Under the pieces are notes generated by a model. The model saw only the letters and a list, made by a program, of their open reading frames with translations, did not search any database and was not told where the DNA came from. From assembly GCA_022539475.1 (NCBI GenBank), contig VCMS01000133.1:1-26943 (forward strand): a stretch of DNA of 26,943 nucleotides, given 5' to 3'. This DNA is from Gracilaria domingensis. Its lineage: Eukaryota; Rhodophyta; Florideophyceae; Gracilariales; Gracilariaceae. Positions 10,243 through 26,943 of this stretch are shown in pieces. The first letter of the stretch is position 1. Every line of letters starts with the position of its first letter. Made by a program: the position numbers and the translations under genes.

Positions 10243-10257
10243 CGCTACGAAGTAGCG
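10243..10257. repeat. Small hairpin CGCTAC-GAA-GTAGCG
   Basis: Perfect 6-bp arms with a 3-nt loop. It is the first of a run of hairpins reaching to about 10,900. Confidence 0.6.
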
Positions 10258-10261
10258 TGCT

Positions 10262-10342
10262 GAGAAAGAGAATGAAGTACGCTTCATCTCTGCTTAATGG
10301 ATTCCATTAAGCGGACATGAAGCGTACCTCATTCTCTTTCTC
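10262..10342. repeat. Long hairpin H1, 26-bp arms with one mismatch
   Basis: Arms 10262-10287 and 10317-10342 are reverse complements except for one position. Between them is a second perfect stem, GCTTAATGG (10292-10300) pairing with CCATTAAGC (10304-10312). The whole 81 nt can fold into one almost continuous stem. Confidence 0.85.
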
Positions 10343-10679
10343 CGCCCTCGTCGGACGCCTCCATAAAGCGGACAGCATCCATATCTCACGGATGTATTCC
10401 GTGCAGTCTTTCCGTTCAGTCTTTTCGTACGTGCTTCCATATCCTTCTACGTATCTTTGTTCTAAACTAACCAATCCTCACCACGTCTCTTCGCGCTCTG
10501 CGACATGTAAGCGGCAGGAAAAAGGCTTTGGGTTACTTTTGCGAGTTACTAGGTCCCTCGACTTTTCTAGCGCAACGTTTCTGTTTTGTTTTATCAATGG
10601 TACGTTCCATCGCATTTCAAATGTATCCAACGGAGCATTGACTAACTTATGGATACTTTCTGCTTGCGTATACAGGTAA
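10317..10679 (+). other. Doubtful ORF of 120 codons
   Basis: An ATG-started frame in a region otherwise full of hairpins. It begins inside the right arm of hairpin H1. The product is rich in Ser, Phe and Arg, shows no motif or domain I recognise and has no neighbour arrangement that supports it. Probably not a gene. Confidence 0.15.
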
Positions 10680-10721
10680 ATGCCTTTTGATGCGGACGTA
10701 GCTCACGAGTTGCAGGTGCAG

Positions 10722-10773
10722 GTTCCTCAAGTAGGGAACCATGCATCTGGGCATGGTTCCCTACATGAGGAAC
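10722..10773. repeat. Long hairpin H2, 23-bp arms with one mismatch
   Basis: Arms 10722-10744 and 10751-10773 differ at one position and close on the loop ATCTGG. The single mismatch sits inside an otherwise perfect stem, as in H1. Confidence 0.85.
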
Positions 10774-10774
10774 G

Positions 10775-10807
10775 GAGAGGATGAGGCGCTTCGCGCCTCA
10801 TCCTCTC
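10775..10807. repeat. Perfect hairpin H3, 15-bp arms, TTC loop
   Basis: GAGAGGATGAGGCGC (10775-10789) pairs perfectly with 10793-10807. It follows H2 after one base. There is no T-run after it, so it does not look like a simple terminator. Confidence 0.85.
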
Positions 10808-10839
10808 GGAGTACGTATTTGTTCTACCGATACAGCACT

Positions 10840-10900
10840 ATGGTGGAGGTGCAGTCTGCGGCATCTGCCGCAGATTGCGCCTACACCCGCTCCATCATGG
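10840..10900. repeat. Hairpin H4, two-part stem
   Basis: Inner arms 10851-10861 and 10868-10878 (GCAGTCTGCGG against CCGCAGATTGC) close on CATCTG. An outer stem, TATGGTGGAG against CTCCATCAT, extends it with an internal loop. Confidence 0.7.
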
Positions 10901-11286
10901 AGAAATGGTACATGTAATATAGCGAAGTAGTGGTTAGCAAAAGCGGTCGATGGAAGAATAGATACGAATAAAACGGTATGATTTCATAATGGACATCATC
11001 TGTACTAGCACTAGTATTCCATGCGTTGCAGGGTATCATTCCGCAGAAGGTATCGTGTAATGTGCACCTTAATGGAAACTGAACCTAGACTTCGCGATAT
11101 ATGGTTCAGGTAGCCCTCGACTAAAGAACTAGCATGAGTGGAAAACCCACCAGTATTTACTGCACAGCGATTCTGGACGACCCAAGCAATTATCTCCAAA
11201 TTTTGAAATAATTGATCTCGATGTTTTTTCAAAAAATTTACTGGACGACCCTTGCCAATTTCTGGACGACCCTCGCCAAAAACTAG
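10901..11286. other. Non-coding stretch at the junction between region A and the first retroelement
   Basis: No gene seen. CTGGACGACCC occurs three times, at 11173, 11241 and 11262, in an AT-rich setting just before the retroelement pol frame opens at 11287. It is probably the breakpoint region of the truncated element. No long terminal repeat was recognised. Confidence 0.4.
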
Positions 11287-12300
11287 CATCTGCAAGAGAC
11301 AGACGTCCAATCTCCGTACGAGAAGTATCAGCTCGCACTTGCGAATGGTGTTGTTCAGATCTCTGATGAACTGCCCTTTCGAGTCATAGTTGCAAACTCC
11401 GGAAAGAAGGCTCAGTATCTTATGAAGAATCAGGTTATCGGCACTGTGCTCCCGCAACCTACCGCCCTTATCCCTACAAAGGTATCTGCTGCCAAAGTTC
11501 TCGGTTTCCTCGAGTCCGCAAATGCAGTTACATTATCTAAGGAGGAGGAGGAGGATGTCCTCTTATCGATTTCTCCAGTGGAGCTTAATAACCCGAAAGA
11601 TTTGGAAAAGAAGGTCGTTTCTACGAGTTTTGACACACTCTATCCTCTCAAGGAATTAGAACAGTTAGACCTCGGTCATGTACTGGATTCACATCGTGAG
11701 ACGTTACGCGAGATATTGCGTGAGTTCACACCAGTGTGCGATGGATCTCTCGGAGAGGTTTCTGCTACGGAACACTGGATTGGTCTGTTACCAGACACGA
11801 AGCCAATCGTTCAACACCCATATAGGGCAGGTTCGAAGGCACGGGAGGAAGAACAGTTCCAAGTGAATAAAATGCTCCGCGCATGCGTGATTGAACCCGC
11901 TCAGTCATCGTGGGAATCTCAAGTTGTACTGGCTCCAAAACCCGATGGGTCCTGGGGTTTTTGTACTGACTATCGCCGCCTTAAAGATTTCACCGTCAAA
12001 TACGTATGCCGTATACCTCGTATGGATGAGTATATTGATTCGCTTGGAGATGCGACTGGTTTCTGCACATTGGATGAGACCTGGGGATACTGGCAAGTAC
12101 CCGTTCGACCAGAACATCGTGATAGCACCGGTTTTATCTGCTATTTGGGGTTATACTGTTTTGAGCGTATGCCGCTCTGGCTAACGTATGACCCTGCTAC
12201 GCTTCAACGTGCGCGGAACATTCTACTCGCTCGCTTTAAATGGCGGAGATGTATCGTCTATTTGGACGACATCATAGTCTTCTCCAACAAATTTGGATGA
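11287..12300 (+). pseudogene. pol: Reverse transcriptase, N-terminal and palm part (element 1)
   Basis: Open from 11287 to TGA 12298-12300. It begins with the linker that precedes RT (LANGVVQISDELPF, similar to LMANGIVDNIPTKPF in element 2), then RT motifs: VIEPAQSSWESQVVLAPKPDGSWGF with the primer-grip side, CTDYRRL, a first catalytic Asp in CTLDETWGYWQV and YLDDI with the two further Asp. The usual MPFGL-NAPATFQR block is degraded to MPLWLTYDPATLQR. The frame is lost right after YLDDIIVFS. Confidence 0.8.
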
Positions 12301-12664
12301 TCACCTCGAACACGTTCGGGAGATCATGACCAGGCTTCGTGATCCAGGAATAACCCTCAAGTTGAGGAAACGTGAGTTCTTCACTGACTTAGTCAAGTAT
12401 CTTGAACACGTTATCCGCCCGGGACGGCTACTCATCGAGAAAGCTCGTGTGAAGTCACTCAAGGATGCTAAACACCCCAGAACTCAGACTGAGCTACGCT
12501 CCTTCCTAGGGCTATGCAAGGTCTATCGACGGTTTATCCCGGGCTTCGCGAAGATTGCGGGACTTCTCAACGACCTTCTTAGGAAGGGACAACCACCAAC
12601 ACTGGAACCCCTTGCTCCCGCGCAAGCCGAAGCATTCGACTCTCTCAAAGAGGCAGTTACCTGA
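12293..12664 (+). pseudogene. pol: RT thumb and connection (element 1), frameshifted
   Basis: Continues RT in another frame: DHLEHVREIMTRL, LKLRKREFF, then TELRSFLGLCKVYRRFIPGFAKIAGLL, the conserved block between RT and RNase H. It ends at an in-frame TGA (12662-12664). The same frame continues beyond it with PILSLPKNGLLFTVDTNAS, the first RNase H Asp, before the frame shifts again. Confidence 0.75.
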
Positions 12665-13109
12665 GCACCAATCTTATCATTGCCGAAGAATGGATTACTA
12701 TTCACCGTAGATACGAATGCGAGTGCCCACCAAAACCACACCCGATGGAGAACGCAAACCAATTGGTTATTGGTCTAGGACACTCAACGTTCATGCACGG
12801 AACTATTCTGTATCAGAGAAGGAATGTCTTGCCATGGTATGCGCTCTTCAGACACTACGTCCATATCTTATGGGTGTGAATTTTACAGTCAACACGGATC
12901 ATTCCGCGTTGCGTTGGGTGATGTCTATCACTGAATCTTCCGGTGGATCAATGCGCTGGCGACTTCGGCTAGCCGAATTCGATTATGGCGTCATTTACAA
13001 AAAGGGAATTTTGAATACCCTAGCGTACGCCCTCTCCCGTCTAAGAACGGATGGTGAAGCACTTCCGTCGACGACGACGATGAGGAATTCCCTGTTTCTT
13101 ACCCCATGA
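12665..13109 (+). pseudogene. pol: RNase H domain (element 1), frameshifted
   Basis: The VDTNAS Asp motif lies in one frame (about 12,708), and the rest in a second frame from about 12,717: IGYWSRTLN, YSVSEKECLAMVCAL with the catalytic Glu, and TDHSALRWVM with a further Asp. The end of the domain is changed, with LAYALSR where VADALSR is usual. The frame change between 12,720 and 12,750 makes it non-functional. Confidence 0.75.
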
Positions 13110-14205
13110 GAATGATGAGGACTACGAGTTTATCTCGGATGATATATGCGATGATGTACTCGTTGCAAACGGTATCGATCCTGATCTGGGCGCATTTGCC
13201 TCTATCACTCCTGAGGAGTTAGTTTGTGAACAGCACGGAGACCCGTTTTGTACGAAGAGGCGCGCCCAGCTAAATGGAGATGCGAATATCCTCTTTGAAG
13301 TTAACTCACAAGTTTACTTGGTTAAGCTGGTGCGATCTAACCCACAAATTTTGGTTCCCCATTCTCTTCAATCAAGAGTTTTGCATCTTTCGCACTACTC
13401 GAAGATTGCTGCTCACCCTAGTGCCAGGAAGCTTTACACGACACTTCGTCCGGAGTTCTACTTGCCCGTCTTAGCGCTTGATTGTTATTCTACCGTCAAC
13501 ACGTCTACGAACTGTGCTCGAGAACGAGTGAAACTTCGTCGCCATGCGAAAAAGCTTAGTCTGTTTCCCGCACGAGCGCCTCCTGAATTTGTTGCCATCG
13601 ATATACTCGGCGAGTTCTTCCGGACTTCCCGTGGAAACCGCTATTTGCTTGTCCTTACGGATAGGTTTTCTAAACTCGTCCGGACCGTTCCGTTCAAGAA
13701 TGGAGCACGAACTGTGGCGGAAGCTTTCGCTAAGCATTGGGCTTTCGTCTACGTTCCACCGGTCAATCGTCTCTCGGATAATGGCCGGCAATTTGTTGCG
13801 CGCTTCTTCCAGGATGTCTGTCGGTTACTCGATGTGAAGAATTTGTTCACAACGACGTACCATTCCCAATGCAATGGGCAGGTGGAACGGTTCAACCGTA
13901 CGTTGTGGTCCCTATTGCGTGCGTATACTGTCGATCACCCCAAGAGATGGGACTTGTACACGGATACCGTACCTTACGGGTATAATACGCAGGTACACAA
14001 AGTAACTAGCCTCTCACCATTTGAGCTGGTACTCTCGCGTCCTCCACCGCCGGTGGAAGTCGAACCGCAGCCCACGCCGGACAGGTACCCATCTACGGTC
14101 GATCATTATCTCCATTGGAAAACGTGGTTCACTACAATGGTATTTTTTGGGAAATCTTCGATGGCGAAGGCACAACTCGCATACAAGCCAAAGTTCAGTG
14201 CCTGA
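13096..14205 (+). pseudogene. pol: Integrase (element 1)
   Basis: An acidic spacer leads to the zinc-binding region (VLHLSHYSKIAAH) with the two His. Of the usual Cys pair the first is replaced by Ser (STNCARE). The DDE core keeps all three acids: VAIDILG (about 13,600), LSDNGRQF (about 13,777) and GQVERFN (about 13,880). It ends at TGA 14203-14205, just before the GPY/F module, which continues in the frame used from 14227. The substituted Cys and the stop point to decay. Confidence 0.8.
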
Positions 14206-14226
14206 ATCCGTCGGCAACTACCATCC

Positions 14227-15996
14227 TTGGAGAAGGGACAATTCGCCTTTGTAAGGAAAGAATATTATAATCCTGAGAAGGAGAAACGTCACAAAATATC
14301 TCTAATTGTGAATGGACCCCACAAGAACGTCTCTGTAGCGCCAGACACAGTTGTACCAGAAGTTAGTGATCAACATGAGCGGTTCTTCCGCGATCGCGTG
14401 TTACAAAGTACCACCCCTGTTATGGAGGTTGTCGCCCCCCGTACTCTCTCGAAAGACCGTCCATCTACAGCGCACTCGCCAGAGGCTGAAGCCCCTCACG
14501 CTCGTGGTGTTCCACACTTCTCGAGAGAGCTCTCAGACCTTCCGATGTTATCGTCGCACATTCCCGAGTCTTCGGACTCCCACCGTTTAATTCATTCTCG
14601 CTTTATTGCGAAGGTTACACCGCCTACTGACGTGCTTTCTAATCCCGTCGCTTCACCTAAGAAGGGGGAGGAGAATGCCGGCCTTGGCGCGAAGGATGTA
14701 ATTCCGGTGTCGCAACCGTCGTCAAACGCACACGGCACACGGAGTAATGAAGTGGAATTGCCTTCGGGCTCCGTTCAGAACGGCTACGTTCAGGGTACAC
14801 CGATTGCCGTGTCAGCAGATCCCCAATCGTGTGCTGATGTCGCGAAGACCGCCCACCCCTTTGCAGAGGACAGCAGTGGCGTCAGAGCTCGTACTCACAC
14901 GTCCTTGGATAAGGTTCCGCCTCAGCAAACTGGTATTACTCACTCTACTAGGGAAGTATCGCCGGAAAACTCCGTTCAATTGCGTGAAACGCAGGAGTCG
15001 TCAGACCATTGCTCTCGCGAAGCTCCCTCGGCACAGCCGGCAAAGAACTTGTACAACCTGCCGCCTCGGCTGAGTAATGAAACAGGGCACCTGGTAACGC
15101 AATCTGAAAGCGCACCGGATGCTCCGTCGTCCTCTACCGTCGTTGAAGTTCGCAATACCCCGCGCAGTGTTGTTCGAGGGAACCCAGTCACGGTAGATAC
15201 CGGTACAGTTAGCACTCCTTTACAGGACGGTGCGGCACACATTGAAGTGAAATTTTCTCACCCCGAGAACGGTTGAGTTGGTATCGATACTGGCCCGCTT
15301 GCGGGAAGTTCACTCTTGACCCGTCGCAATGACGTAAGCCGCCACGACAGGCCCTCAAGATCATCTGGAGAGGCAGATCCGAGCCGCATGGAGGGGACTT
15401 CAAACACTACTCTTGAAGGAGAGCCGCTGCGCAAGGTGGCACTTAGCGCACAATGCACAGCACTCAGTGGGCCAGCTCGACTGTCAGACAGTGTTACCCC
15501 GACCAACAGTCGTGTCCAATCACGTGAACCGGCACGCGCCGTGGCAACCGATCCGCCTCCCCAACCGACTTTGTCGTCAGGAAGAGCGCGAGCTCGTTCT
15601 CGCGTACTCGCGGATTCCGCCCAACGTACTGAGACACGCAGCTTAACTCCCGCTAGTCCGACTCAGAAGAGTGTGGCTAAACCGCTGAAGGCGTTGGAAT
15701 CTCCCGAGAAGCTCGCGGAAGCGCCTGACACCCCGCTACACTCCAGTGAGGAGCAGGCTAAGAACGACGACACAGTTCGGGAAGTAAATACGAAAGAGTT
15801 CGTGGATGGACCAAATCGTGGGACATAGGCACACCCGAGAGGAGAAAGTCTCTACCGCGTTCGCCGGTACATCTGGCCGCCGTCTAGAGACACGGAAGAG
15901 GCGGTCGAACACCTCCCCCGATCTCAAATCGTGCGCTATCATCGCCGTATCAAAACGGGTTTGCCACGCAACATCGACATGTCTTTTGCATGGTAA
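14227..15996 (+). pseudogene. pol: Integrase GPY/F module, long disordered linker and chromodomain (element 1)
   Basis: The frame first encodes the GPY/F-like module (GQFAFVRKEYY, RHKISLIVNGPHK). It then stays open for about 500 codons of Ser/Pro/Thr/Glu-rich sequence with no domain, interrupted only by TGA 15274-15276 and TAG 15826-15828. It ends in a chromodomain: LYRVRRYIWPPSRDTEEAVEHLP...QIVRYHRRI (about 15,850-15,960), stop at 15,994-15,996. The chromodomain N-terminal part (DQIVGH) is in another frame, so a pair of compensating slips lies near 15,810-15,830. A chromodomain is expected to guide integration to modified histones. The linker is far longer than in element 2, where it is about 100 aa. 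Confidence 0.7.
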
Positions 15997-16006
15997 CGTA
16001 CACGTC

Positions 16007-16023
16007 GATGGAAGGATGGGAAG
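16007..16023 (+). other. Candidate polypurine tract of element 1
   Basis: GATGGAAGGATGGGAAG lies 10 nt after the chromodomain stop, where the primer for plus-strand DNA synthesis is expected. It contains two T residues, and no TG-started LTR was confirmed downstream. Confidence 0.3.
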
Positions 16024-16899
16024 CTCCCGCCGATGAGCAGCGTCACACTAGCGAGGGGCGACCGCTCTAAAGCGGAACTCTACTTTGTACGGCATCAGCA
16101 TCTTTTAGAGGGATCGAGATGAACACTCGAGAAGAGGAATGAATACGTCGAACGAGAGAAGGGAACTCTCCGTAGAGACAGACGCTCTGGTGAGTGTGAA
16201 GAACCTTCCTCGGCTCGCAGGCGAGGAGACTCGATGTATCGCTGGAAGCGAGGGAGGATTGTGCGCAGGAGCTGTGTGAACACGAGAAGTCGGTATCGTC
16301 CCGCTCATCGCGGTGGGTATTTTATACTCTCGCGGAGCGAGGTTAAGGACAGCTCCAGAGGTGAGTTTGCACCTTAGAGGGGAATACGTAGTGCAACGCG
16401 TTTCGCGGAACTTTGTCCGTTATGCGATTCATACTAATCGCTCCGGTACGAAGGTGAAGTACAGCTCTTTATGAGTTGCACGTGGATTTGCCAATTACTT
16501 GGGAATGGTCACAATAGGAATTGGTCACGGTCGTGTACACAGCCTTTGCTGCATTCTTCACACACGTGTAGTGCCTACTACACCCATTCGTAGGGAAACT
16601 TAGTATTATCTCTAGTATTCTAGATAGTTAGGATATTTTACTAATTTTCACCCTGAGAGTGGGGGTCGGCCAATCTACTTAGGTGGGTGAGCTCGACCCG
16701 CACTGGGCAAGTAAACGCACTTAACAAGTGTCGGCTCTGACTCAGGAACCCCTGGTGCGTGATAGCCTCCTCGCGGAGAGTCACTACCTGGTGATGGACT
16801 AGTTATCTGTGGTATAACCGATCGGTGCGAGCTGCTAGTGGGGAGCCCTGCGTGGGCTCGACACGGCGGAGGAGTGAAACGCGTGACACCTAATAGGTC
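16024..16899. other. Non-coding stretch between the two retroelements
   Basis: No gene seen. If the tract at 16,007-16,023 is the polypurine tract, the first part should be the 3' LTR of element 1. No second copy is in the window to prove it. The part 16,600-16,680 is AT-rich with CTAGTATTCTAGATAG. CCANNTGG sites are absent here and start at 16,932. Confidence 0.35.
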
Positions 16900-17104
16900 G
16901 GCAGCACCCGCCGTTGCCTATAGTGCGCGGTGACCAAGTGGTAAATACGCCTGCACTGGTGTGCGGCAGGCACGTATAACCCTCGAGGTCAGCAAAACTA
17001 TTAGAGGACTACTAGACTTACCAATTGGTGACTGTAGAACCGAACTGGTGTCAAATTAGCCTAGTTGGTGCTTGACTTTACCATTTGGTGTGGGAGGTTG
17101 GCGT

Positions 17105-17127
17105 CTCGGGGGTTTAGTACCCCCGAG
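17105..17127. repeat. Hairpin CTCGGGGGT-TTAGT-ACCCCCGAG
   Basis: Perfect 9-bp arms with a 5-nt loop, in the non-coding leader of region C. Its role is unknown. Confidence 0.6.
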
Positions 17128-18637
17128 CGCCCCTCCGGCTCTCACGGGCCTAGTGCCACGTGGGCCACCGGGAGGTGCATTTGTGGTGCACCACCCCGGC
17201 CACATATCTACACTACCTAGTAATTATTAATTCTAAATTATCGAGAATAGACTAATTAGTCCTGTCCAATCCTGCGCTTGCGCGTCCCACGTGGTACAGT
17301 AGACACACGTGCCCGGGAGAGCGTGACGTCACCACTTGGTCTTGTAGAGCCCCCGTTGATCTGGCCGAGCTATACTACAGACCCCCCTCCTACCGACAGG
17401 CACGCCCCGTGGCTGCGAAGGTCCTACGGCGTTTGCCGCCTTTTCACCAAACGGTCGTCGGCGCGCATCGCCTGGCGCACGGCGCGTCTCGCGATGACGC
17501 GAAGATGGCGCGGTGCACGGCGCGGCTCGCCACATGCACTGCAGCGCCATTACCCACGCCGCCGTACCCCCCTGTGGTAGGTGCGATCGTACCTTACGTC
17601 CCTCGTGGTATTGGAACGCGAAACCGCGAACCGCGACCATTCAGGTTGATCTTGTCGCGCGCCTGGTACCACGTGGTTGTCTTCGCCTCTTTGGTCCCTC
17701 CCGGAGGAGTCCGTCACTCCATCTTCCCCTGTCCGTCCTCCCCCTGGGCGGGTTAGTCCCGGCTTACCAGTTGGTTTCGAGCCTCCCTTCGGTGGGGTTC
17801 GCAGTTGTCAACCGATCGGCACACCGCCCCCTCGTGGTGTCGCTCCTATCCTCTGTTGGCCACTTGGTCTTGTGCCGTACTGAGGTGAAACCTCGTTGGT
17901 TCCGACACGTACTGTCTCTCCGCTTGAGTGAGGGCGCCACTGGGGTGTCGTTGCCTTGGGCGGCCGCGTCGAGGAGACTCCTGCCCGTGGCTCTTCAGAC
18001 TTCGTGACCGTACCGGTGCTGACGCCGCTTCTACCTAGTGGTCTGCCTCATCGGGGTGTTCAGGCGTGCTTCAGGTCCAGCCGAGGGGTTTACCCGACTG
18101 CGTGGCGTTCAGCGCCCCTCCACCTGGTTCCTCGCGGTCTCCTTCCGTCCCTTAGGTTCCCTCTGGGGTGGTTGTACCCTCCCTGGTTCACGGAACCCGT
18201 CCAGCCGGCGCACAACCCTGGTCATTTTCACGGTGTGTCAGCTCGCTCGAGCGGCGTGCCCGTTCTCTGTGACCCCTCAGGTTTCATCTAGTCATCCAAT
18301 TGGTGGTGTTCCCCCTCTCGGTTGGTATCCTCCGTGGCACGCTCTCGCTCCAACTCGCGCCTTTAATACCTCATGGGTGATCAACCCGCTTCCCCAACGG
18401 GGTGGTCGATGACGTTCGAACGCCGTCAAGACGGTGCCGAGGAGGGCATCGCGCGCGCCCTTCCCGTTGTGGTGGACCCCGGGGTGAGACGGCGCCGTTT
18501 CAATCGAATTACCACGTGGTTGACTCTTCGCAGCCCTGTCTGCCGTCCCAGACCGGTACACCTGTGTCCTTTCCATCGGGCGCCGAGGCTCCCGTGGAGG
18601 CCAACCACTTGTTATTGGAGGAGCCGCACTTCGACCC
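17128..18637. other. Non-coding GC-rich leader upstream of the plus-strand gene
   Basis: Several overlapping frames are open here by GC bias, but none has a recognisable motif or a supported start. The stretch is dense in CCANNTGG, including four copies of the E-box-like CCACGTGG (17,156; 17,288; 17,669; 18,511). It may be an LTR or the regulatory region of the gene at 18,723. Confidence 0.4.
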
Positions 18638-18643
18638 TATAAA
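18638..18643 (+). promoter_or_regulatory. TATA box TATAAA of the plus-strand gene
   Basis: TATAAAGG lies 85 nt before the first ATG of the long plus-strand ORF, a normal spacing for a TATA box plus short leader. A CCACGTGG site is about 120 nt further upstream. Confidence 0.55.
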
Positions 18644-18722
18644 GGGATATTCGGCTTCTGAAGTCTCCCACTCGGCGGAGGTCAACCGTTCGGTTCGCGA
18701 AACTGTTGCCTCCCGGTCGAGG

Positions 18723-21098
18723 ATGTCTGGCAAGACCCCTGGGGTAGCGCGCGGCCGCGGAGGTGGCATCTTCAAGCCTAACACGCCGTCGAGTACGCGT
18801 TCTCGTCAAGACCCTTACGGTCGCGGTGGGTATGATCCCTACGCAGCCGCCGCGGGTCCGAGCAATGTTAACCCTCTTGCGGTGGCCGGTACGGTGGAGG
18901 CTCAACAGCTGAATCCTCATGACCTTAATAGGACTCACGGGCAGCCGCATGCCCACTATGGTGCACGCTTTGCCGATATCTCCGCCGAATTGGTCGCTCT
19001 GGGGAACTGGCCTTTCCACATCAGTTCCTCACTCTGTCCCTTGCGGTTCCGCCACATGGGTCTCACGCAGTATACCGCAATTGCCCGTTGGGATTGTCGC
19101 CGGTTGAAGGCGGTGCCTATGGCACCTCCTCCACCACGCAAGGGCGAGAAGCAGAGCCGGTTCGGTCGACAACAGTGTTTCCATGCGCGGCAGCGACACA
19201 CGAAGTTTCTATACTACATCCCCGTGGCCGTACCGTCGGATCTCCCCTTCATCCGCTGCGATGGGGAGGTCCACTACTTCCGCCGTTTGGTAGATATCCT
19301 TCACCGCTTGGACGAACCTGCTACGCACATCGAGGTCGATCTGGAGTACGTCGCGTTTGAGCGCCCTTTAGATACCAATTATTGGACTGACCGTGGGAGG
19401 TGGGCGACCGATGCGATGGCTGAGAGCCGTGTTCGTCACCGTAACAACCGTACGCGGACCATGTTCCTGTTCCACAACGTTGAGTATTGGTCGCAGAGCG
19501 ACCACAACCGCCGGACATGGTATGTCAATCGACCCTCTTGGTGGGACCACTATGAAGTATGTCAGTGGCTGGAAGTGCCGACCCCGCCGGTCCTTGCGTA
19601 CTTTGGTAGTTGCATCTCCCTCGAGAGGAACAACGCATATGCCGTTTGGTCGGTCGCGCGCAGCGAGTGGGCCGTCATGGTGGCTATCCTCGCCCTTCAG
19701 GCTTCCGTGGAAGGTGTGACTTGGGACACGCGCTGCCCTGACAAGTCTGTCGGGATCAGCGGAACTCAACCAGTTGGTCGTATCTTCAATATTCCCAACG
19801 ATGTGGTCGGCGACATTCGTGCCATGGGGCTCTCCAACATCGTGGAGGGCACCAAATATACTGCGCAGCAGTTGGATGGCTACCTCACTGCGGTAAGTAA
19901 CCACAATTGGGGGCCTGAACAGGGTTGGGATGTCTACGACCCGGAGGTTCATAGCATCGTGCCTCTCCAACAGCAGCACATGGCTGGCGAAGACCCATTT
20001 GGTAATGACGATACCGTGATGGTGGCTGCCGAGAACTATGAGTCTCCCGCATTGCCTCCGTCGGCACCTGTACAGGCTACTCCTCCGACCAGCGTGGCTG
20101 CGCCTGTTCCAAGTGGTCTGGCTAACCCTCAGGCGGCTGCTCACCCTCCCGGACGGGCTGCCCAGGGGCCTCTTCGGGTTGGTTTCCAGTCGCTTCCGGT
20201 GAATCCGGTGCCCCCTGGTGGTGATAGTAGCGCGATACGGAGCGCTCTGGCTCGTCTCAACCACGCCTCGATGGTGCACTTCAACCGTCCTGGTCCAAAT
20301 GACATCCTCACCGCTGTGGATACTCTTACCAACTTGCTCCCCGTGGTTGCTCACCACGAGCGGCGCACTTCTGAGCTGCGACAGTTCCGCGACTACTTCC
20401 AGCGCAATCTCTACCGTGAGGTGACAGCCTATGTTGGTCAGTTGAGCAACCTTGTGGAAGGCCACGCGCCGTTACATCGACCCCCTGTGGAAAGTTTCAA
20501 CCCGTACGCTCCTGCGTCACAGCAACCTGCGACCCCAATGGTAGGCTTTGGTGGCCTTGGTACGTATCAACTCCCTGGTGGACCTCCTGGTGGTGATCCT
20601 GCGGCACCTTTCCATACTCCGCTTGGTCCTCACAACGTTCCTCTTCCTCCAGCAAGTACTGGGACAGGAGCACCAAGTGGTTTCTCAACTGGTTTCCGTT
20701 CGGCTCCGCTTCCGCCGACGTCCGGTGCTCCTAGGCCGCCTACTGGTCTGACCCCCGGTGCAGGGCCGTCTAGTGGTCTTGCTCCTCCGACCTCTGGTGG
20801 CATCCCTCCGTCTAGCCTACCGCCTTCCTTCCATCCACCCACTGGTCCTGCGAATACCGTGCCGGTAGTCAGCCGCGGTACCCCTGCGGGACCTGCTGGT
20901 ACTTTTGCTCCCTTACCAAGTGGTGGTGCGCCACCGAGCGCGGCTAGCGGCGGGGGCGGAAGCTCCGCCGGACCTATGTCGGTGTCCTCTGGTCGTGGAG
21001 GTTCCGCTTCATCTCGCGGGACCTCCCGTGGACGTGGTCGCGGTCGTGGAACCAGTCGTGGACGCGGACGTGGCCGTGGGTCCTCCAAGGCCTCCTAA
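18723..21098 (+). CDS. Unrecognised RG-tailed protein encoded opposite to pol of element 2
   Basis: The frame is open from before 18,402, but the first ATG is 18,723 (A at -3), giving about 791 aa. The N-terminus has a short RG motif (VARGRGGGIF). Residues about 70-430 look globular, rich in W, Y, H and R (RFRHMGLTQYTAIARWDCRR, NRRTWYVNRPSWWDHYEVC), with no family I recognise. Residues about 455-560 are partly ordered, followed by Pro/Gly/Ser-rich repeats (PSG, PTG) and a strongly basic tail of SRGRGRGRG units, typical of RNA or DNA binding. There is no CCHC knuckle and no major homology region, so it is not an obvious gag. It is the only long unbroken frame in region C, and it has its own TATA box and AATAAA. 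The unbroken frame suggests selection. It could be an accessory or anti-silencing DNA-binding protein, or a divergent nucleocapsid protein; this is inference. Confidence 0.7.
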   Translation: MSGKTPGVARGRGGGIFKPNTPSSTRSRQDPYGRGGYDPYAAAAGPSNVNPLAVAGTVEAQQLNPHDLNRTHGQPHAHYGARFADISAELVALGNWPFHISSSLCPLRFRHMGLTQYTAIARWDCRRLKAVPMAPPPPRKGEKQSRFGRQQCFHARQRHTKFLYYIPVAVPSDLPFIRCDGEVHYFRRLVDILHRLDEPATHIEVDLEYVAFERPLDTNYWTDRGRWATDAMAESRVRHRNNRTRTMFLFHNVEYWSQSDHNRRTWYVNRPSWWDHYEVCQWLEVPTPPVLAYFGSCISLERNNAYAVWSVARSEWAVMVAILALQASVEGVTWDTRCPDKSVGISGTQPVGRIFNIPNDVVGDIRAMGLSNIVEGTKYTAQQLDGYLTAVSNHNWGPEQGWDVYDPEVHSIVPLQQQHMAGEDPFGNDDTVMVAAENYESPALPPSAPVQATPPTSVAAPVPSGLANPQAAAHPPGRAAQGPLRVGFQSLPVNPVPPGGDSSAIRSALARLNHASMVHFNRPGPNDILTAVDTLTNLLPVVAHHERRTSELRQFRDYFQRNLYREVTAYVGQLSNLVEGHAPLHRPPVESFNPYAPASQQPATPMVGFGGLGTYQLPGGPPGGDPAAPFHTPLGPHNVPLPPASTGTGAPSGFSTGFRSAPLPPTSGAPRPPTGLTPGAGPSSGLAPPTSGGIPPSSLPPSFHPPTGPANTVPVVSRGTPAGPAGTFAPLPSGGAPPSAASGGGGSSAGPMSVSSGRGGSASSRGTSRGRGRGRGTSRGRGRGRGSSKAS

Positions 21099-21136
21099 GT
21101 CACCTCGTGGTTCCCTCTCGTGGATTCTTCTCGACT

Positions 21137-21142
21137 AATAAA
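21137..21142 (+). terminator. Polyadenylation signal AATAAA of the plus-strand gene
   Basis: AATAAA lies 38 nt after the stop codon and is followed by the GT-rich GTGTCTTGCATTGTG. With the upstream TATA box it outlines a complete transcription unit running towards the 3' end of pol. Confidence 0.55.
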
Positions 21143-21236
21143 GTGTCTTGCATTGTGATCTCTGATCTTCTTTTGTTTTCCTGTTAGGTTAGTTAGTTAG
21201 CTTTTTGTGTAGCGTGGCGTTCAACGGCTTCGATAA

Positions 21237-21253
21237 CCCCCCCCTTCCTTAGC
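21237..21253 (-). other. Polypurine tract after pol of element 2
   Basis: On the minus strand it reads GCTAAGGAAGGGGGGGG, overlapping the stop of the chromodomain frame (21,249). This is the usual place for the plus-strand DNA primer. An identical 17-nt copy lies inside pol at 24,648-24,664. If it is the true tract, the 3' LTR begins near 21,236 and the plus-strand gene would lie within or beyond that LTR. Confidence 0.55.
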
Positions 21254-21560
21254 GACGCGTACCACGCGAAGCAATACCAGTTGGTGGGGGCGTTTGCCCT
21301 TGTTTGCGCCAGTATCGGATGATGAAGTTGTTAGGGATATGACCAGGTGGTTCCATAGAGTCGTGCTCGGGCGACCATCCATACCATCTTACCCGGTAGC
21401 GCATACCCTTTGTGGTGTGTTCGTGACCTACAATGGTGTCAATAGCGCACTCCTGAGTGTCTACTTGAGGGTGTGACTCTTCCATTTGGTCATGGGGTGC
21501 GTGGCTCCCCGTGGGTGGTGTGACCCGTTGGTCTTGCCGAGGCTCGATCTCCTGTGCCAC
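21249..21560 (-). pseudogene. pol: Chromodomain end of pol (element 2)
   Basis: Encodes IDTIVGHEHTTKGMRYRVRWYGWSPEHD, then HIPNNFIIRYWRKQG, a chromodomain with the Tyr/Trp residues of the methyl-lysine cage region. It overlaps the integrase frame by 100 nt in another frame, so one indel lies between 21,461 and 21,560. The expected role is to direct integration to marked chromatin. Confidence 0.75.
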
Positions 21561-23164
21561 TTGGGTCGTGGGTCAGCCGTTACGGCTCTGGTGGAAGGTT
21601 GACCGCTCGGCTGACTCATCATAGGAGGAGGTATGGGAGACGTTTGCTCCCTCTCCGCTTCCTGCTGCGTTGGCTCACCTATTGGTTGTGCATTCGCTGT
21701 CGTCGGTTGTGCGGCCTTGACAATCCTGTCGATGGAGACCGTGTTCTCCAAACCTTCCATTATGACCGTAGCGGTATGCTCGTCGGAGCGAATCACCTTG
21801 TATGGTCCCGTGGACTTGGGTAGTAGTTTAGAATTGATATCCTCCTCAAGGCGGATGTCCTCTTCCATCTCCGCTGGGGTTGGTCGCTTACCTTTTGGTG
21901 GCACGTCAAGGAAGACCATGTCTCCTGCTACCACTTTGGTCACTTTGCTCACCGTTCGGTCATAGTCCGCTTTATACAGTTCTTGGGCTGCTGTCATCTT
22001 AACTTTGGCAGCAGCCAAAGCGGCGCGTAACTTCTGGAGTATGTTTCTCTTGACCTTCGCCGGTGTGAGTGTCCCGGCCGCTTCCGAGCGGTCAGGTCCG
22101 GGCTGGACGATAATACCATGTGGTGTTCGCGAAAGTACCAGGTCGAATGGGGTTGTTTGAGTGACCCTGTGGACCTGGAGGTTGTACGCATATGTCAATG
22201 GTTGGACATACTCCGACCATGTGGTTTGGTGCTCTTCGACATAGTGCCGTAGGCGTGCCACTAGGGTCTTATTGAAGCGTTCCACTTGGCCGTTTGTTTG
22301 CGGATGATAGGCCGTAGTAAAGTAGTGCTTGACCCCTAGCATTGTACAAACCGCCTCGAAGAACTTAGAAGCTAGGTTCGAACCGTTATCGGTCAGTAGG
22401 TACATGGGAGCACCGTACGGGTAGACCCAATTCTCCAGGAAGGCTGTCGCTAGTGTCGTTGCCGTTTGGTTCTTCAGAGGTATGGCTCTGGTGAGCTTTG
22501 TGAACCTGTCGGTTATGACTACTACAAAGCGATAACCCTCTGAGGTCTTGGGCAGGGGCCCCAGTATGTCGATTGCTACGAATTCCAGGGGCCCCGCCGC
22601 CGGGAATAGCTTTAGGTACTTCCTGTGCTTCGCCACACCACCTCGGGTCTTAATGCACGAATTGCATTGCGCCACATAGGTATATACATCGTTAGCCATA
22701 TGCGGCCAGTAGAATTGCCTCCGAAGGGTATAGTACAACCGCGTGGCTCCAGGGTGCCCCGAAAGCCGTGGATTGTGTGACAGATATAACACCCTTTGTC
22801 TTAATGACTCAGGTACGACCTTCTGGAGAGCTCCGTCTAAAGGTGAGCGTCTGATGAGGTACCCATTGTGGTCGACGTCGAAATGAGAATCCTTCCTTCC
22901 AAGTACGTCAGCGAGCGTTTTGCACAACCTATCGGTCGATTGTTCGCGTAAGAATTCCTCACGGGTGATTGGAGCGTGTTCCCCTTCCTCCACAGGGAGG
23001 AGGGTCTCCACTACCACTTGGTACGTACTGTCATCATGCCAGTATCCCTTCAGAACTTCATTGACCTCGTGGTTAGCTGGTTCTATAGTAAAGCATGGGA
23101 TGTCGTCGTCCACTGGGTCAGTGTCCAATCCTTCGGTATTCAACCGGGACAATGCATCCGCCAC
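21461..23164 (-). CDS. pol: Integrase (element 2)
   Basis: Contains the HHCC zinc-binding domain (HLSHNPRLSGH, CNSCIK) and a full DDE core: VAIDILG (about 22,570), LTDNGSNL (about 22,390) and GQVERFN (about 22,280). A GPY/F module with STGPYKVIRS and a linker follow. The frame starts with MADALSRL, the last piece of RNase H. All catalytic residues are present and there is no internal stop in about 567 codons, so this part is intact. It catalyses insertion of the DNA copy. Confidence 0.85.
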   Translation of the reverse strand: MADALSRLNTEGLDTDPVDDDIPCFTIEPANHEVNEVLKGYWHDDSTYQVVVETLLPVEEGEHAPITREEFLREQSTDRLCKTLADVLGRKDSHFDVDHNGYLIRRSPLDGALQKVVPESLRQRVLYLSHNPRLSGHPGATRLYYTLRRQFYWPHMANDVYTYVAQCNSCIKTRGGVAKHRKYLKLFPAAGPLEFVAIDILGPLPKTSEGYRFVVVITDRFTKLTRAIPLKNQTATTLATAFLENWVYPYGAPMYLLTDNGSNLASKFFEAVCTMLGVKHYFTTAYHPQTNGQVERFNKTLVARLRHYVEEHQTTWSEYVQPLTYAYNLQVHRVTQTTPFDLVLSRTPHGIIVQPGPDRSEAAGTLTPAKVKRNILQKLRAALAAAKVKMTAAQELYKADYDRTVSKVTKVVAGDMVFLDVPPKGKRPTPAEMEEDIRLEEDINSKLLPKSTGPYKVIRSDEHTATVIMEGLENTVSIDRIVKAAQPTTANAQPIGEPTQQEAEREQTSPIPPPMMSQPSGQPSTRAVTADPRPKWHRRSSLGKTNGSHHPRGATHPMTKWKSHTLK

Positions 23165-23832
23165 TCGGTGCTTGACCCGGGGCGGTACTGCACATCGTAC
23201 TCAAACTCCGAGAGTCTCAGACGCCATCGGGCCAGACGACCCGATGCGTCCGCCAAGCCTAATATCCACCTCAAGGAGTCGTGATCCGTTCGGAGCGTGA
23301 AGCGCACACCATATAGGTAAGGACGTAGCATGAGCATGCTCCAAACAACCGCTAGGCATTCCTTCTCCGTTACGGTGTAGTTCTGCTCCGCTTGGTTAAG
23401 AGCTCTACTCCAATACCCAATTGGTGCGAGCTTGCCGTCCTCCTGTTCCTGCATTAGGCAGCAACCTATTTGGGCGTCCGACGCATCCGTGTCCAGTGTA
23501 TACGGGAGTCCCGTTTTGGGCAATGCCAGTACCGGTGGGGAGAGAAGCGCTGCTTTCAATGTATAGAACGCCTCTACCTCGTCCTCTTCCAGGTGGTGAA
23601 AGTGTGTGGGCTGCCCCTTCTGCAACCTCCGGTTCAGGGGTGCGGCTATCTTTGCAAAACCCTTGATGAACCGCCGGTAGACGTTGCATAGACCTATAAA
23701 GGATCGTATGTCCGTCTGCGACGTAGGGAGCTTCGCTTCCTGTACCGCTCGGATATTCCGTTTGGTCACTTCGAGTTTCCCGGGCTTATTGTATGCCCTA
23801 GGTACTCTACCTCTTGGTTGAAGAACATACAC
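23140..23832 (-). CDS. pol: RT connection and RNase H (element 2)
   Basis: The block TDIRSFIGLCNVYRRFIKGFAKI leads into RNase H: LDTDASDAQIGCC, YTVTEKECLAVVW and TDHDSLRWIL, with Asp, Glu and Asp present. The frame is lost in a C/G run (CCCCGGG, near 23,175), just before VADALSR. One extra G there would restore it. Confidence 0.8.
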   Translation of the reverse strand: MYVLQPRGRVPRAYNKPGKLEVTKRNIRAVQEAKLPTSQTDIRSFIGLCNVYRRFIKGFAKIAAPLNRRLQKGQPTHFHHLEEDEVEAFYTLKAALLSPPVLALPKTGLPYTLDTDASDAQIGCCLMQEQEDGKLAPIGYWSRALNQAEQNYTVTEKECLAVVWSMLMLRPYLYGVRFTLRTDHDSLRWILGLADASGRLARWRLRLSEFEYDVQYRPGSSTEWRMHCPG

Positions 23833-24179
23833 TTTCGTAGTTTGAGGGTCACGCCTGCCTCTTGTAGCAACTGCAGTACCACTTGGACGTGCGAGAAGTG
23901 CTCCTCTATGGACCTCGAGTAGATGACTACGTCATCTATGTATACCAATGCGGTTGTCCACTTCACTTTAGACAGTATGATGTCTAACGCCCTTTGGAAG
24001 GTAGCGGGGGCGTTTCTTAAACCAAACGGCATGCGTAAGAAGCGATACAGGCCTGCGTGGCATGTAAACGCAGTCTTATCACGGTCACCCTCTGGTATTT
24101 CGATCTGCCAATACCCGCAGTTCGCGTCCAGTGTGGTAAAGATGTTCGCATCTCCTAGGGAGTCGATGCATTCATCCAT
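23766..24179 (-). CDS. pol: Reverse transcriptase palm (element 2)
   Basis: Well-conserved RT core: TLDANCGYWQI with the first Asp, MPFGLRNAPATFQR and YIDDVVIYS with the catalytic pair, then VTLKLRKCMFF and VEYLGHTISPG. It is preceded and followed by one-base slips (near 24,185 in CCATCCGAGG and near 23,780 in AGCCCGGGAAA). Element 2 RT is closer to the family pattern than that of element 1. Confidence 0.85.
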   Translation of the reverse strand: MDECIDSLGDANIFTTLDANCGYWQIEIPEGDRDKTAFTCHAGLYRFLRMPFGLRNAPATFQRALDIILSKVKWTTALVYIDDVVIYSRSIEEHFSHVQVVLQLLQEAGVTLKLRKCMFFNQEVEYLGHTISPGNSK

Positions 24180-24754
24180 CCTCGGATGGGGTACGAGTCC
24201 CTTACCGTTACGGCATTAAGTTTTCTGTAGTCAATACAGAACCTCATACGGGTCTCTCCTCGTTTTTGGACTAGCACTACAGGGCTAGCCCATTCCGAGT
24301 TTGCCGGTTCTATAACCCCCTCGCGGAGCATCCGCTCTACCTCCTCCAGCTCTACCTCACGAGCCTTTTGTCCCGCGCGGTATGGCTGTTGGTGGATGGG
24401 ACGGGAGTCCGGTTTGAGGTCAATCCTGTGCTGGGTGGCCTTAATGGCTCCCAGCTTACCCGACCACATGGTACTGAATGGCTCCAGGAGTCCAAGGATC
24501 CGAGCTCTGAGCTCTTCCCCTTCAAGTCCTATATTCACCTCCGTCTTCCAATTGGTCACTGGGTCGAGCTCCAGTTTCTGGTCTTCTCGCTCAGCTAGTC
24601 GCTGCACCATATGGTCTGTTCGCGACGAATTCACCGAATTGACACTGCCCCCCCCTTCCTTAGCATCCACGACCTCGTGGGACCATTGTGGTATAATCGT
24701 AAAGATCGTACGGGGAGCCGGTAAGGCAAGACCAATTACGGTGTGTTTTGGCAA
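24155..24754 (-). CDS. pol: Protease-RT linker and RT N-terminal part (element 2)
   Basis: From PKHTVIGLALPAPRTI through an acidic linker to the RT fingers: IDLKPDSRPIHQQPYRAG, EGVIEPANSEWASPVVLVQK, RFCIDYRKLNAVT. The internal polypurine copy (24,648-24,664) encodes KEGGG in the linker. It overlaps the protease frame by 95 nt. One A fewer in the AAAA run near 24,750 would join them. Confidence 0.8.
   Translation of the reverse strand: MPKHTVIGLALPAPRTIFTIIPQWSHEVVDAKEGGGSVNSVNSSRTDHMVQRLAEREDQKLELDPVTNWKTEVNIGLEGEELRARILGLLEPFSTMWSGKLGAIKATQHRIDLKPDSRPIHQQPYRAGQKAREVELEEVERMLREGVIEPANSEWASPVVLVQKRGETRMRFCIDYRKLNAVTVRDSYPIRGWMNASTP
24648..24664 (-). other. Internal copy of the 17-nt polypurine tract (possible central tract)
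   Basis: GCTAAGGAAGGGGGGGG on the minus strand is identical over 17 nt to the tract at 21,237-21,253, while the flanking bases differ. It lies in pol between protease and RT. Some retroelements use a second internal tract to start plus-strand synthesis; whether this one does is unknown. Confidence 0.5.
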
Positions 24755-25500
24755 CTTGAACCGGGCGGTTGCTGAAGTTACTGAGGTAGACCTGAAACGG
24801 TTTTGTCGGTATGTTGTCGACTATACCATTCGCCATTAAGGTCATGTGTCGTTCGGCCAACCGTGAATGGTTCTGAATGGATAACAGGCCAGGTTGTTGG
24901 CATGTGACCTTCACTACCAAGTGGTTCATAGGCGGTATTGTTACCGCCTTTGCCAATCGCACCTTGTTGGAGAGTGTGTTTTCCGGGACCGGTTGGTGTT
25001 GAGTGCGGTTCTCTTTCGTAGAGGCACCCTTGTGGTTACCAATAATGGCGATCCGGGGGCCATTATGGAACAGAACTGTCTTAGAACGTGGAAAAATTGC
25101 CCTGACATACTGGTCTATAAAAGTTGTGCCGAGGATACAGTCTGTTGCCAGTTGGTTAACGACTATGAAGCGAACTCGGACCCTCATGGTGTCAATCAAT
25201 ACCATTATGGTAAGCGCTCCCATGACGGTTAGTGGTCTGTTGTTGGCGTCAACCAGTGGGTTAGTTAATGTACATGGCTGAAGCTTATTAAGTTGTCTGT
25301 TAGTTAATAGTTTGGCATTCACCAGATTAGGTCCTGCCCCGGTGTCCAGGACAGTGACGCATGGTACCAAGTGGTTAGAAGTAAACCCGAGGGTGACGTT
25401 TACCTTATAGTTACTATGCTTGAGAAAGCATATCGGTTCGGTGCCGTCCATGAGGCTCTCCTCCCCTGTAACCAATGGGTAATTGTCCATACTTGCACCA
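24660..25500 (-). CDS. pol: Aspartic protease (element 2)
   Basis: The protease active site VTVLDTGAGPNLV is at about 25,340, followed by PLTVMGALTI, VNQLATDCILGTTFI (the hydrophobic I/L-L-G end of the fold) and a long spacer to RT. The same frame is open further upstream to 25,892, but the sequence there does not look like protease. The gag-pol frame change is probably between 25,414 and 25,500, where another frame ends. It cuts the Gag-Pol polyprotein. Confidence 0.75.
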
Positions 25501-26205
25501 CTTGGTTCTGGAAGGCCTTCCGTCTTCGGACAGTTGGGGAAGGCCTCTATCCCAACTGTTCGGCGTTTTCCGCCTGCGGGGCGGGATCCGTTTGGTCCTG
25601 CTCCGTGACGAGGTGTACCTGATGAGGTGTGGCTGCATTGGGTCGCGCATTTGCGTGTCCCGTGCCTGCGCTCCGTGCCGGGGGCCCCAAATATATCCTG
25701 GTGGTTCTGCTGGCGAGCAGTCAGGAGAGCGTTCCTGTTCTGCGGAGCCACACTTGGCACGCTGTTGCCAAGTGGTGGGGCGACAAACAGAACCAACAGA
25801 GGAGATTGCCGGTTGTGGGGTCCCGCGCGATGGGGGACGGCCTCCAGTAGGTACTGCACTCCGTTGCTGCGGGGATGGTCCTTGTTCACCATATTGCTTG
25901 AATGGTACCGCTAGGACCGGGCTGACCGGTACGGATACCTGTGATGGTGGAGCTGAGGTTTGTCTTGAGGGTGGCTCGCTGGATAGCGAGCTGGACCAAG
26001 AGGTATTACCGTGCGATCGAGTTGTCGGTTGCGCATGCACCAAGTGGACTGGGTGACCCTGGGAGGCGTATTGTGTGGACGCCTCCTCCGTAGTGGTCTC
26101 CTCTTCCTCTACGTCAAACACTGACCGCCTGGTCTTTCCTTTCTCCTTCGATGGTTTGCCGAGTGGTGCGGAGTCCTTCCTGGCCCCTGACCGAACGGGT
26201 GTCAC
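25414..26205 (-). pseudogene. gag: Gag C-terminal / gag-pol spacer (element 2)
   Basis: About 260 codons of Pro/Ser/Arg-rich sequence (SKEKGKTRRSV, EEEETTTEEAS, PPSQVSVPVSPVLAVPF), continuous in sense with the gag frame to its right through a one-base slip near 26,200 (GDTRSV against TPVRSG). No CCHC zinc knuckle was found in any frame; scattered Cys residues near 25,740 do not fit one. The 3' part overlaps another open frame, so the exact reading is uncertain. Confidence 0.5.
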
Positions 26206-26681
26206 CTAGTCCCTGTGCATGGCGGGCTAGTGCGTTGTAGTCGACCGTGCGGTTGGTAGCTAGGTAGTTACGAACCTGTGATCGGATAGACTTCGCCACG
26301 TTGTCGGCGTACATCGATTTCAACCTTTTGTAGCTAAAGACCTTCCACAGCGGAGGGCCTAATGCGCATAAGGAGCGATTCGAATTCCCAATTCGGTTGT
26401 CCGCCTGCTGGCGCGTACGCTAAAGCACCTCTGCGTACGCCTCCTGGATTTATCCTCAGTCGGTCGCGTAGTTTCCAGCTAGCGAAGTTAACCAACCTGT
26501 GGTATGTTGTCAACATTTCCGTTTGCGTTCTTCGTCCACGCCATGGTGTTCCTCTGGAGGCGGCTGTGGAAGCCACGCTCCAGCCTGACCAGTTAGTAGA
26601 ATTGAAAACAGCCACATGGCTGCTGCTCTGGAAAACGCCATTCTGATCACAAGCGATCTTGAACCCTTTGAGAATAATCAA
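26114..26681 (-). pseudogene. gag: Gag remnant (element 2), frameshifted
   Basis: The clearest part is LWKVFSYKRLKSMYADNVAKSI, then NYLATNRTVDYNALARHAQGLG (26,190-26,355), which resembles the end of a Gypsy capsid domain. Further right, 26,334-26,681, frames are open but mixed (QSSSHVAVF in one, MAFSRAAAMWLF in another), so at least one indel lies between. No gag start codon is certain. Confidence 0.5.
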
Positions 26682-26943
26682 TGATCGCCAATAGGCGTCA
26701 TCCCCGCGTTAAAGCGAGTTTCACCCAGGTTGGAAACGAAAGCTTCGCCTATGATGCTGCGTTATCTTCTGACTACCGCTTTGGTATATCAGCCTGTCTG
26801 TTCTCTAACCTATAGGTACGATAGTCAACCCGCCTTTGTGCAATTAAGATCATTAGGCGCGTAAGCACCTCTAGGTCAGTCTCCTCGTCGCGAAGTTGAG
26901 TCCCGAATCGTTATTACCTTTGGTCTTACCCTTGCGGGGATTC
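26682..26943. other. Right edge, no gene resolved
   Basis: Every minus-strand frame contains stops. It may hold a decayed gag N-terminus or the leader of element 2. No primer-binding site or LTR end was recognised before the window ends. Confidence 0.35.

Follow-up and report, generated by a model that had tools for sequence, protein, structure and literature searches.

Dispersed ACC-N4-GGT and ACC-N5-GGT dyads along a Ty3-type retroelement of Gracilaria domingensis: possible sites for a dimeric DNA-binding protein

We analysed a stretch of 26,943 nucleotides from the red alga Gracilaria domingensis (contig VCMS01000133.1, hereafter the window) and found that the long terminal repeat (LTR) retroelement occupying it from 16,808 to its end is studded, reading frames included, with short two-fold symmetric words of the form ACC-N4-GGT (52 sites) and ACC-N5-GGT (29 sites). 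The palindrome CCANNTGG, with which the analysis began, is the best form of the N4 class of this broader dyad. The same dyads are present in other copies of the family (family A) and in a related sister family of the same genome (family B). We give a probability of about one half to the reading that a dimeric protein, encoded by the host or by gag-pol, binds these scattered sites sequence-specifically in double-strand DNA and thereby recognises this clade of elements.

The original prediction was that CCANNTGG is enriched across one retroelement at 16,900-26,943, and it was to be given up if the count came near chance. We counted 39 CCANNTGG and 20 of the longer form ACCANNTGGT in that range, compared with 4 and 1 in positions 1-16,900. 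In the whole window there were 43 CCANNTGG versus 7.1 in 100 dinucleotide shuffles (standard deviation 2.6, maximum 17), and 21 ACCANNTGGT versus 0.39 expected from such shuffles. The enrichment and its coincidence with an element were thus borne out, but the start was placed slightly too far to the right, the element runs past the window end, and the motif was under-described. The best control of the enrichment was the comparison of spacings within the same sequence. In the element, ACCA-Nk-TGGT was counted 20 times at k=2, while none of the remaining 24 values of k between 0 and 24 gave more than 3; for CCA-Nk-TGG the numbers were 39 at k=2 and 1-10 at other spacings. The wider unit ACC-Nk-GGT was found 52 times at N4, 29 times at N5 and 18 times at N6, compared with 1-9 times at spacings 0-3 and 7-15 (mean 6.3, range 1-12, over spacings 0-44 minus 4-6), and the rest of the window held only 4, 2 and 0 such sites. 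When half-sites of 3-4 bases were scanned at spacings 0-19, ACC-N4/N5-GGT was the top-scoring dyad of the element, and the same scan gave nothing comparable in 1-9,950 or in a second, less related Ty3 element at 9,950-16,807 (1 N4, 2 N5, no dyad excess). The base following ACC in the N4 sites was A in 57 of 104 half-sites, A (or G) being preferred, and base use outside ACC..GGT was nearly flat. The N6 excess was clear only in the family A pol frames, with 2 further copies in a 362-bp spacer; as the five non-coding parts pooled held 4 N6 versus 33 N4 sites, we took N4 and N5 as the real classes. Two further candidates, AAC-N5-GGT and ACC-N5-GTT, were rejected as words of their own, being by reasoning shadows of N4 sites beside an A or a T.

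The window contains the greater part of a Ty3-type LTR retroelement, whose pol is encoded on the minus strand. Comparison of copies placed its left border at 16,808, the TG of the LTR. On the right its other end must lie beyond the window, in an assembly gap (26,944-28,607) into which the element continues. A copy on another contig (C213) has the second LTR, with TG..CA ends, an LTR identity of 98.6% and, by inspection, a 5-bp target duplication; it also contains an RVT_1 match and an open 755-aa gag frame. The assignment to the Ty3 type rests on these TG..CA LTRs and the 5-bp duplication and on the order reverse transcriptase (RT), RNase H, integrase among the domains of a diverged copy (L039). 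The parts of the element, with their dyads, are as follows.

16808..26943, unstranded: whole element part inside the window; 52 ACC-N4-GGT and 29 ACC-N5-GGT dyads
16808..17379, minus strand: LTR of 572 bp (3' LTR in the sense of pol), TG..CA, supported by copy borders and the second LTR on C213; 6 CCANNTGG, 6 N4, 3 N5 dyads
17380..18722, unstranded: non-coding spacer between LTR and antisense gene; 6 CCANNTGG, 7 N4, 5 N5
18723..21098, plus strand: antisense gene, 791 aa, directed towards pol; Pro/Gly-rich with an RGG-type C-terminus, no family assigned
21099..21460, unstranded: convergent spacer, 362 bp; 2 CCANNTGG, 3 N4, 2 N6 dyads
21461..23164, minus strand: integrase reading frame (H2C2, rve); 6 CCANNTGG, 11 N4, 3 N5, 6 N6
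23140..23832, minus strand: RNase H reading frame
24155..24754, minus strand: reverse-transcriptase frame fragment, interrupted, no Pfam match in the window copy
24660..26205, minus strand: protease / end-of-gag frames, two overlapping open reading frames (ORFs), no Pfam match in the window copy; 24,755-26,205 holds 10 N4, 4 N5

The density of N4-6 dyads was highest in the LTR (15.7 per kb), followed by the convergent spacer (13.8), the protease/gag part (13.1), integrase (11.7), the spacer between LTR and antisense gene (9.7), the antisense gene (8.0), the RT-RNase H part (6.3) and 26,206 to the end (5.4), compared with 0.4 per kb outside the element. The intervals between sites were irregular (coefficient of variation 0.94), and Tandem Repeats Finder reported no tandem repeats in 16,808-26,943 and two short two-copy ones in the family B copy L040. 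The gag and pol frames of the window copy (21461-26205, minus strand) are interrupted; an open 1552-aa frame over the integrase is present in several other listed copies. The chromodomain PF00385 was matched in L039 (E-value 7e-4) and in family B (6e-4), both short of the curated cut-off, and Pfam gave no match to it in the window integrase frame. Among the 120 of 285 integrase matches listed, most of them unnamed, the nearest named relatives were red algal, from Agarophyton chilense (at most 60% identity) and Chondrus crispus (at most 57%).

The dyads lie in both coding and non-coding DNA (LTR, spacers and reading frames), as predicted, and protein coding alone does not account for them. Synonymous codons were shuffled 2000 times within each of five window frames, which overlap slightly, so that one N5 and one N6 site are counted twice. 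Summed over the five frames there were 22 CCANNTGG versus 6.9 expected (maximum of the shuffles 15), 30 N4 sites versus 7.4 (maximum 17), 19 N5 versus 5.6 (maximum 15) and 15 N6 versus 4.1 (maximum 11), compared with 0 versus 4.2 (maximum 10) at the control spacing N8. Non-coding DNA compared with dinucleotide shuffles gave 6 N4 sites versus 0.3 in the LTR and 7 versus 0.64 in the spacer between LTR and antisense gene. The pol dyads fall in all three reading frames. In the antisense gene 5 of the 6 CCANNTGG stand in one phase, so that peptide bias (PSG/PVG-type codons) helps there, as had also been anticipated. Although such codons do supply sites in that gene, it is hardly credible that codon use, base composition or repeats produce the pattern as an artefact: over the entire element the shuffles rule out codon use and composition, and the spacing control, the non-coding DNA, the sister family and the lack of tandem repeats in the element all speak against it.

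The enrichment was common to the family. CCANNTGG was present 16-34 times in every one of the 30 family A loci, L005-L034, which are incomplete elements and in some cases include flanking DNA (L005 is the window and L006 its near-identical duplicate), and the flanks of 12 copies (15.8 kb) held 2 N4 and 5 N5 sites, which is the chance level. In the searched genome (77.9 Mb, 680 contigs), where a 4.6-kb piece of the element had at least 38 DNA matches, ACCANNTGGT occurred 4,164 times versus 1,620 for the reversed pattern, and ACC-N4-GGT 21,944 times versus 17,811 at N8. By our estimate, in which the copy number is uncertain, 70-80 copies with 50-60 excess N4 sites each would give the whole genomic N4 excess; family A copies thus approximately account for it, and no other large set of N4 sites in the host is apparent. 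The N5 count (22,778) exceeds the share of family A and the reversed control is also high (21,629), and we draw no conclusion from it.

We then compared the sites between copies. The window copy was aligned with the three diverged copies d37, d38 and d39 (L037, L038 and L039) over ∼6.2 kb including 20 window sites, and the expected number of core differences was obtained from 5000 draws of bases matched for letter, gene and codon position. In the comparison with d37, which is 20% diverged, 8 of 120 core bases differed where 26.3 were expected, and none of the 5000 draws was as low; the difference rates were 0.067 for the core, 0.225 for the middle NN and 0.222 for the flanks. Whole sites were kept in 12 of 20 cases versus 4.3 expected (0/5000 draws) in d37, 14 of 20 versus 9.8 (p 0.03) in d38 and 12 of 20 versus 9.7 (p 0.18) in d39. 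The half-sites thus appear to be held while the middle and the flanks drift, clearly so against one of the three diverged copies and weakly or not significantly against the two others, younger comparisons in which there is less power. The expectation that the core would be conserved over its neighbouring bases therefore held for the most diverged copy, less so for d38, and without significance for d39. In addition, the spacer of d37-d39 (window ∼17,480-18,544) gave almost no BLAST match (one 56-bp piece in d38) although the gene and the LTR matched, and these non-matching spacers hold dyads of their own, 1-3 N4 and 1-3 N5 each.

A search with an Agarophyton protein led to six places in the genome whose integrase is distinct but related (71-73% to the first part of that protein); we call them family B. 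The results for this family come from one copy, L040 (4.5 kb), whose integrase is 59% identical to that of the window and is followed by a tail of 2.2 kb, in which no long reading frame occurs, and then by an LTR; tails 81-83% identical to this one are present at three other places. L040 contained 28 N4 and 31 N5 sites, a density above that of family A. The integrase frame held 11 N4 and 8 N5, the LTR 2 and 5, and the sequence beyond the LTR 0 and 1, while the non-coding tail held 15 N4, 18 N5 and 1 N6, with ∼0.6 of each expected. When 13 N4/N5 sites of the family A integrase were aligned to B, 6 kept all six core bases, compared with 5 of 46 control dyads (p 0.009). In the reverse direction, B to A, the numbers were 6 of 18 and 5 of 62 (p 0.013). 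Of the aligned coding bases of the two integrases, only 58% agree. The total of N4-6 sites per integrase frame was 20 in A and 23 in B. One scan of viral contigs found no relatives of the B integrase there. Two further observations were made on both families. ACT-N5-AGT is in excess in family A (8 scattered sites in the window copy, 8 in d39, 0 in B), and one-mismatch N4 dyads are depleted in the window copy (23 versus 43, p 6e-4; 28 versus 38 in d39, 31 versus 34 in d37 and 15 versus 20.5 in B), a depletion on which we did not rely.

We asked whether the words are read as DNA or as RNA. In the latter case the genomic RNA would fold at these words into small stem-loops, which Gag would recognise as packaging signals scattered along it or to which a different RNA-binding protein would attach; dispersed packaging stem-loops have been proposed for RNA viruses (PMC6281560, in the part available), and spacings of 4-5 suit loop sizes. 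As RNA stems would tolerate other Watson-Crick and G-U pairs, we examined pair replacements in the dyads, using for family A a string that includes 1 kb of the C213 copy and thus has 58 N4 sites. At the middle core position the other Watson-Crick pairs together showed no excess (5 versus 5.9 in control spacings, T-A alone 4 versus 1.2), and at the outer position a change on either side alone was tolerated. G-U forms at the inner position showed no consistent excess (N4: T-G 2 versus 3.5, G-T 4 versus 2.0; N5: T-G 0 versus 3.5, G-T 0 versus 2.0). Symmetric Watson-Crick replacements at the inner position were, however, in excess in family A (18 versus 6.2 at N4, 16 versus 6.2 at N5), which favours stems; family B was at the control level there (3 versus 2.7 at N4, 0 versus 2.7 at N5). 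In the family A N4 sites the fourth base was complementary across the dyad in 34 of 58 cases versus ∼23 expected from the margins, which, if it reflected RNA, would require a 2-base loop, as would the preferred inner A..T pair. Moreover, GGT-N4-ACC, a comparable stem, occurs once, and N6 is rare in the non-coding parts (4 versus 33 N4) though a 6-base loop should serve equally. The evidence is thus mostly against RNA stem-loops, which we consider quite improbable. That a dimer reads the words in double-strand DNA seems more likely.

Could the 791-aa product of the antisense gene be the reader? The original prediction pointed to a self-recognition system similar to that of the VANC anti-silencing factors. 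In a VANC-like reading, this protein would bind the dyads and free its own family from silencing. The gene looks as if it were kept by purifying selection: its ratio of nonsynonymous to synonymous substitution rates (dN/dS) against the window was 0.10 and 0.11 for the diverged copies d38 and d39, and closer pairs gave 0.15, 0.43 and 0.44, so that three comparisons lie at 0.10-0.15 and two, between closer copies, at 0.43-0.44. It had at least 61 protein matches in the genome, pieces included, and 46 of the 61 listed were free of internal stops. Antisense ORFs in the same place in Retand elements are predicted to be DNA-binding (PMC11963269, in the portion at hand). In contrast, no DNA-binding domain was found in the 791-aa protein, which had no Pfam match (E up to 5), no PHROG family and no homolog in the searched protein sets. 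Pfam and homolog search likewise gave no VANC homologue, a direct comparison with VANC sequences not being part of these searches. Two weak matches in the PDB covered a short C-terminal and a short Pro-rich stretch, and a fold prediction for the first 454 residues was uninformative (mean predicted local distance difference test score, pLDDT, 30). More importantly, L040 has a higher dyad density and no trace of the gene: its tail between pol and LTR has no antisense frame of 120 aa or more, and the best tblastn match to the 791-aa protein had an E-value of 0.75. The protein therefore seems not to be needed as recogniser, and its role as sole reader is weakened, unless the protein acts on family B in trans after loss of the gene there, or the gene survives in other B copies only. 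We regard a VANC-like role of this protein as unlikely.

Alternatively, the element might recruit a transcription factor or an architectural protein of the host for its expression, much as gypsy does with Su(Hw), without any self-recognition; we consider this rather unlikely but nevertheless give it some weight. The dyads are common to two families of one host, and the LTR has the highest density of them. On the other hand, the sites extend beyond the LTR and leader through gag, pol and the antisense gene, and the estimate that the family copies alone give about the genomic N4 excess leaves no other large N4 host set apparent, the N5 count not being so explained. A factor of the basic helix-loop-helix (bHLH) type, which had been put forward for its CANNTG core, fits poorly. 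CA-N2-TG occurred 64 times versus 32-48 at the other 15 spacings from 0 to 15, whereas ACC-N4-GGT occurred 52 times versus ∼6. The constrained part is CC..GG with the outer A..T; the inner A..T is present in 20 of the 52 N4 sites and lacking in 32, and the second class, N5, has its half-sites one base further apart. What was predicted of self-recognition or factor recruitment thus stands as far as the pattern is one that such systems would leave, but neither the 791-aa protein as necessary recogniser nor the bHLH core was upheld.

The reading we favour, dispersed sites for a dimeric DNA-binding protein, may be put as follows. A clade of Ty3-type elements is studded with the ACC-N4-GGT and ACC-N5-GGT sites; a putative dimeric double-strand DNA-binding protein would bind them, and selection would keep the number of sites because each copy gains by being bound along its length. 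The reader, common to both families, might be a host factor or a gag-pol product, and the gain might be protection of the integrated copy from silencing, or other chromatin control, by closely spaced bound dimers; the distribution over the whole length fits chromatin control of the integrated copy. In its stronger form, to which we assign slightly less than even odds, the dyads would be a self-identifying code along the whole element, frames included (∼8 sites per kb), read by a dimer, older than the split between A and B, and kept by selection for their number and to some extent their position, independently of the extra gene that an element carries. Several points weigh against this. The dyad-binding protein is putative, its binding being deduced from sequence, and the anti-silencing purpose is suggested by analogy only; sites running through gene bodies are unusual for transcription-factor binding. 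The symmetric excess at the inner position in family A is not predicted by independent half-site contacts. In d38 the core differed at 7 of 120 bases versus 14.4 expected (p 0.014), weaker than in d37, and in d39 at 10 of 120 versus 14.5 (p 0.115), where the middle bases (0.075) differed no more than the core (0.083). Among single frames, N4 was not significant in the RNase H (1 site) and RT (2 sites) fragments, nor N5 in the integrase (3 versus 1.4) or in the d38 pol frame (2 versus 1.4). Finally, family B is represented by a single copy, and most integrase N4-N6 sites differ in place between A and B (8 of 20 have the same start).

Other features of the window and of related copies were also observed. 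At 1825-4028 (plus strand) there are two consecutive ORFs, the first without a Pfam match and the second comprising the end of an N6_N4_Mtase (PF01555, E 3.5e-8) followed by SET (PF00856, E 8.5e-9); a few kb away, at 7323-9056 (minus strand), lies a Plavaka-type transposase (PF18759, E 1.3e-16). Such a methylase-SET combination in the neighbourhood of a transposase gene seems unusual. The second Ty3 element (9950-16807) has plus-strand pol fragments (ORFs 11422-12300 and 13318-14205) and a 58% DNA likeness to the B integrase over 695 bp. L006 (contig C363) is 99.9% identical to the window over 7.6 kb, 1.4 kb of it outside the element, and is probably an allelic or duplicated contig and no independent insertion. 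In L013 (contig C549) a piece from 7208 is 90% like window 26,531-26,943 and lies ∼1 kb past the 3' LTR, as if two tandem elements shared one LTR. The family A copies L029 and L030 (contigs C262 and C275) have a flank 96% identical to window 785-1444, either a shared repeat or a nested insertion site. Beside the C213 copy, an open 325-aa frame (L036, 318-1295, minus strand) resembles a tyrosine recombinase by eye.

If the favoured reading is true, this retroelement would label itself in an unusual manner, with a word about every 125 letters. To our knowledge, few mobile elements identify themselves by a short word scattered over their DNA, and we know of no whole-body DNA recognition code for a retroelement. 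As the word is simple, symmetric, spacing-specific, placed inside coding sequence and common to two families of one host, a search for the reader with a single oligonucleotide is feasible, and the dyads would allow one to test by what means elements of such a host evade or direct silencing. L040, having the motif without the gene, also shows that one should be wary of attributing such motifs to whatever extra gene lies nearest.

Finally, we compared the element with known systems. The papillomavirus E2 site ACC-N6-GGT, read by a dimer, has the same ACC..GGT half-sites, but the spacing is 6 there and 4 and 5 here, and the elements are unrelated. The Su(Hw) sites of gypsy form a single cluster in the leader and are non-palindromic, while the dyads here extend over the whole element. 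Gypsy of Drosophila is similar in being a retroelement with many sites for one DNA-binding protein (PMC2374998, available part). In the literature searched, judged by titles and the beginnings of abstracts, no dispersed dyad of this kind in a retroelement was found, and of four motif strings one was found, only in a papillomavirus paper (PMC6473165), whose available text contains ACCNNNNGGT. Retand-type plant Ty3 elements share the extra antisense gene between pol and the 3' LTR, but according to the portion of the source at hand (PMC11963269) their ORFs mostly carry the TRP28 domain (PF04195), while the antisense ORF here has no Pfam match, and that portion mentions no dispersed dyad for Retand. 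In the VANDAL transposons of Arabidopsis, the motif YAGTATTAY of VANC21 lies in tandem repeats of non-coding regions and is bound by the element's own VANC (PMC5735166, PMC10398659, as far as the available parts tell). VANDAL is a DNA transposon with a non-dyad motif, whereas here an LTR retroelement carries a dyad with two spacings; the dyads are not confined to non-coding tandem repeats but lie in coding and non-coding DNA, with no tandem repeats in the window part; and a sister-family copy, L040, carries them without the extra gene. We therefore do not class the element as a VANC system. In both cases, however, a short motif is in excess across the copies of one mobile-element family (here in 30 of 30 loci), and self-recognition, shown there, is presumed here; VANC/VANDAL is the closest analogue and a model of how the dyads might work.

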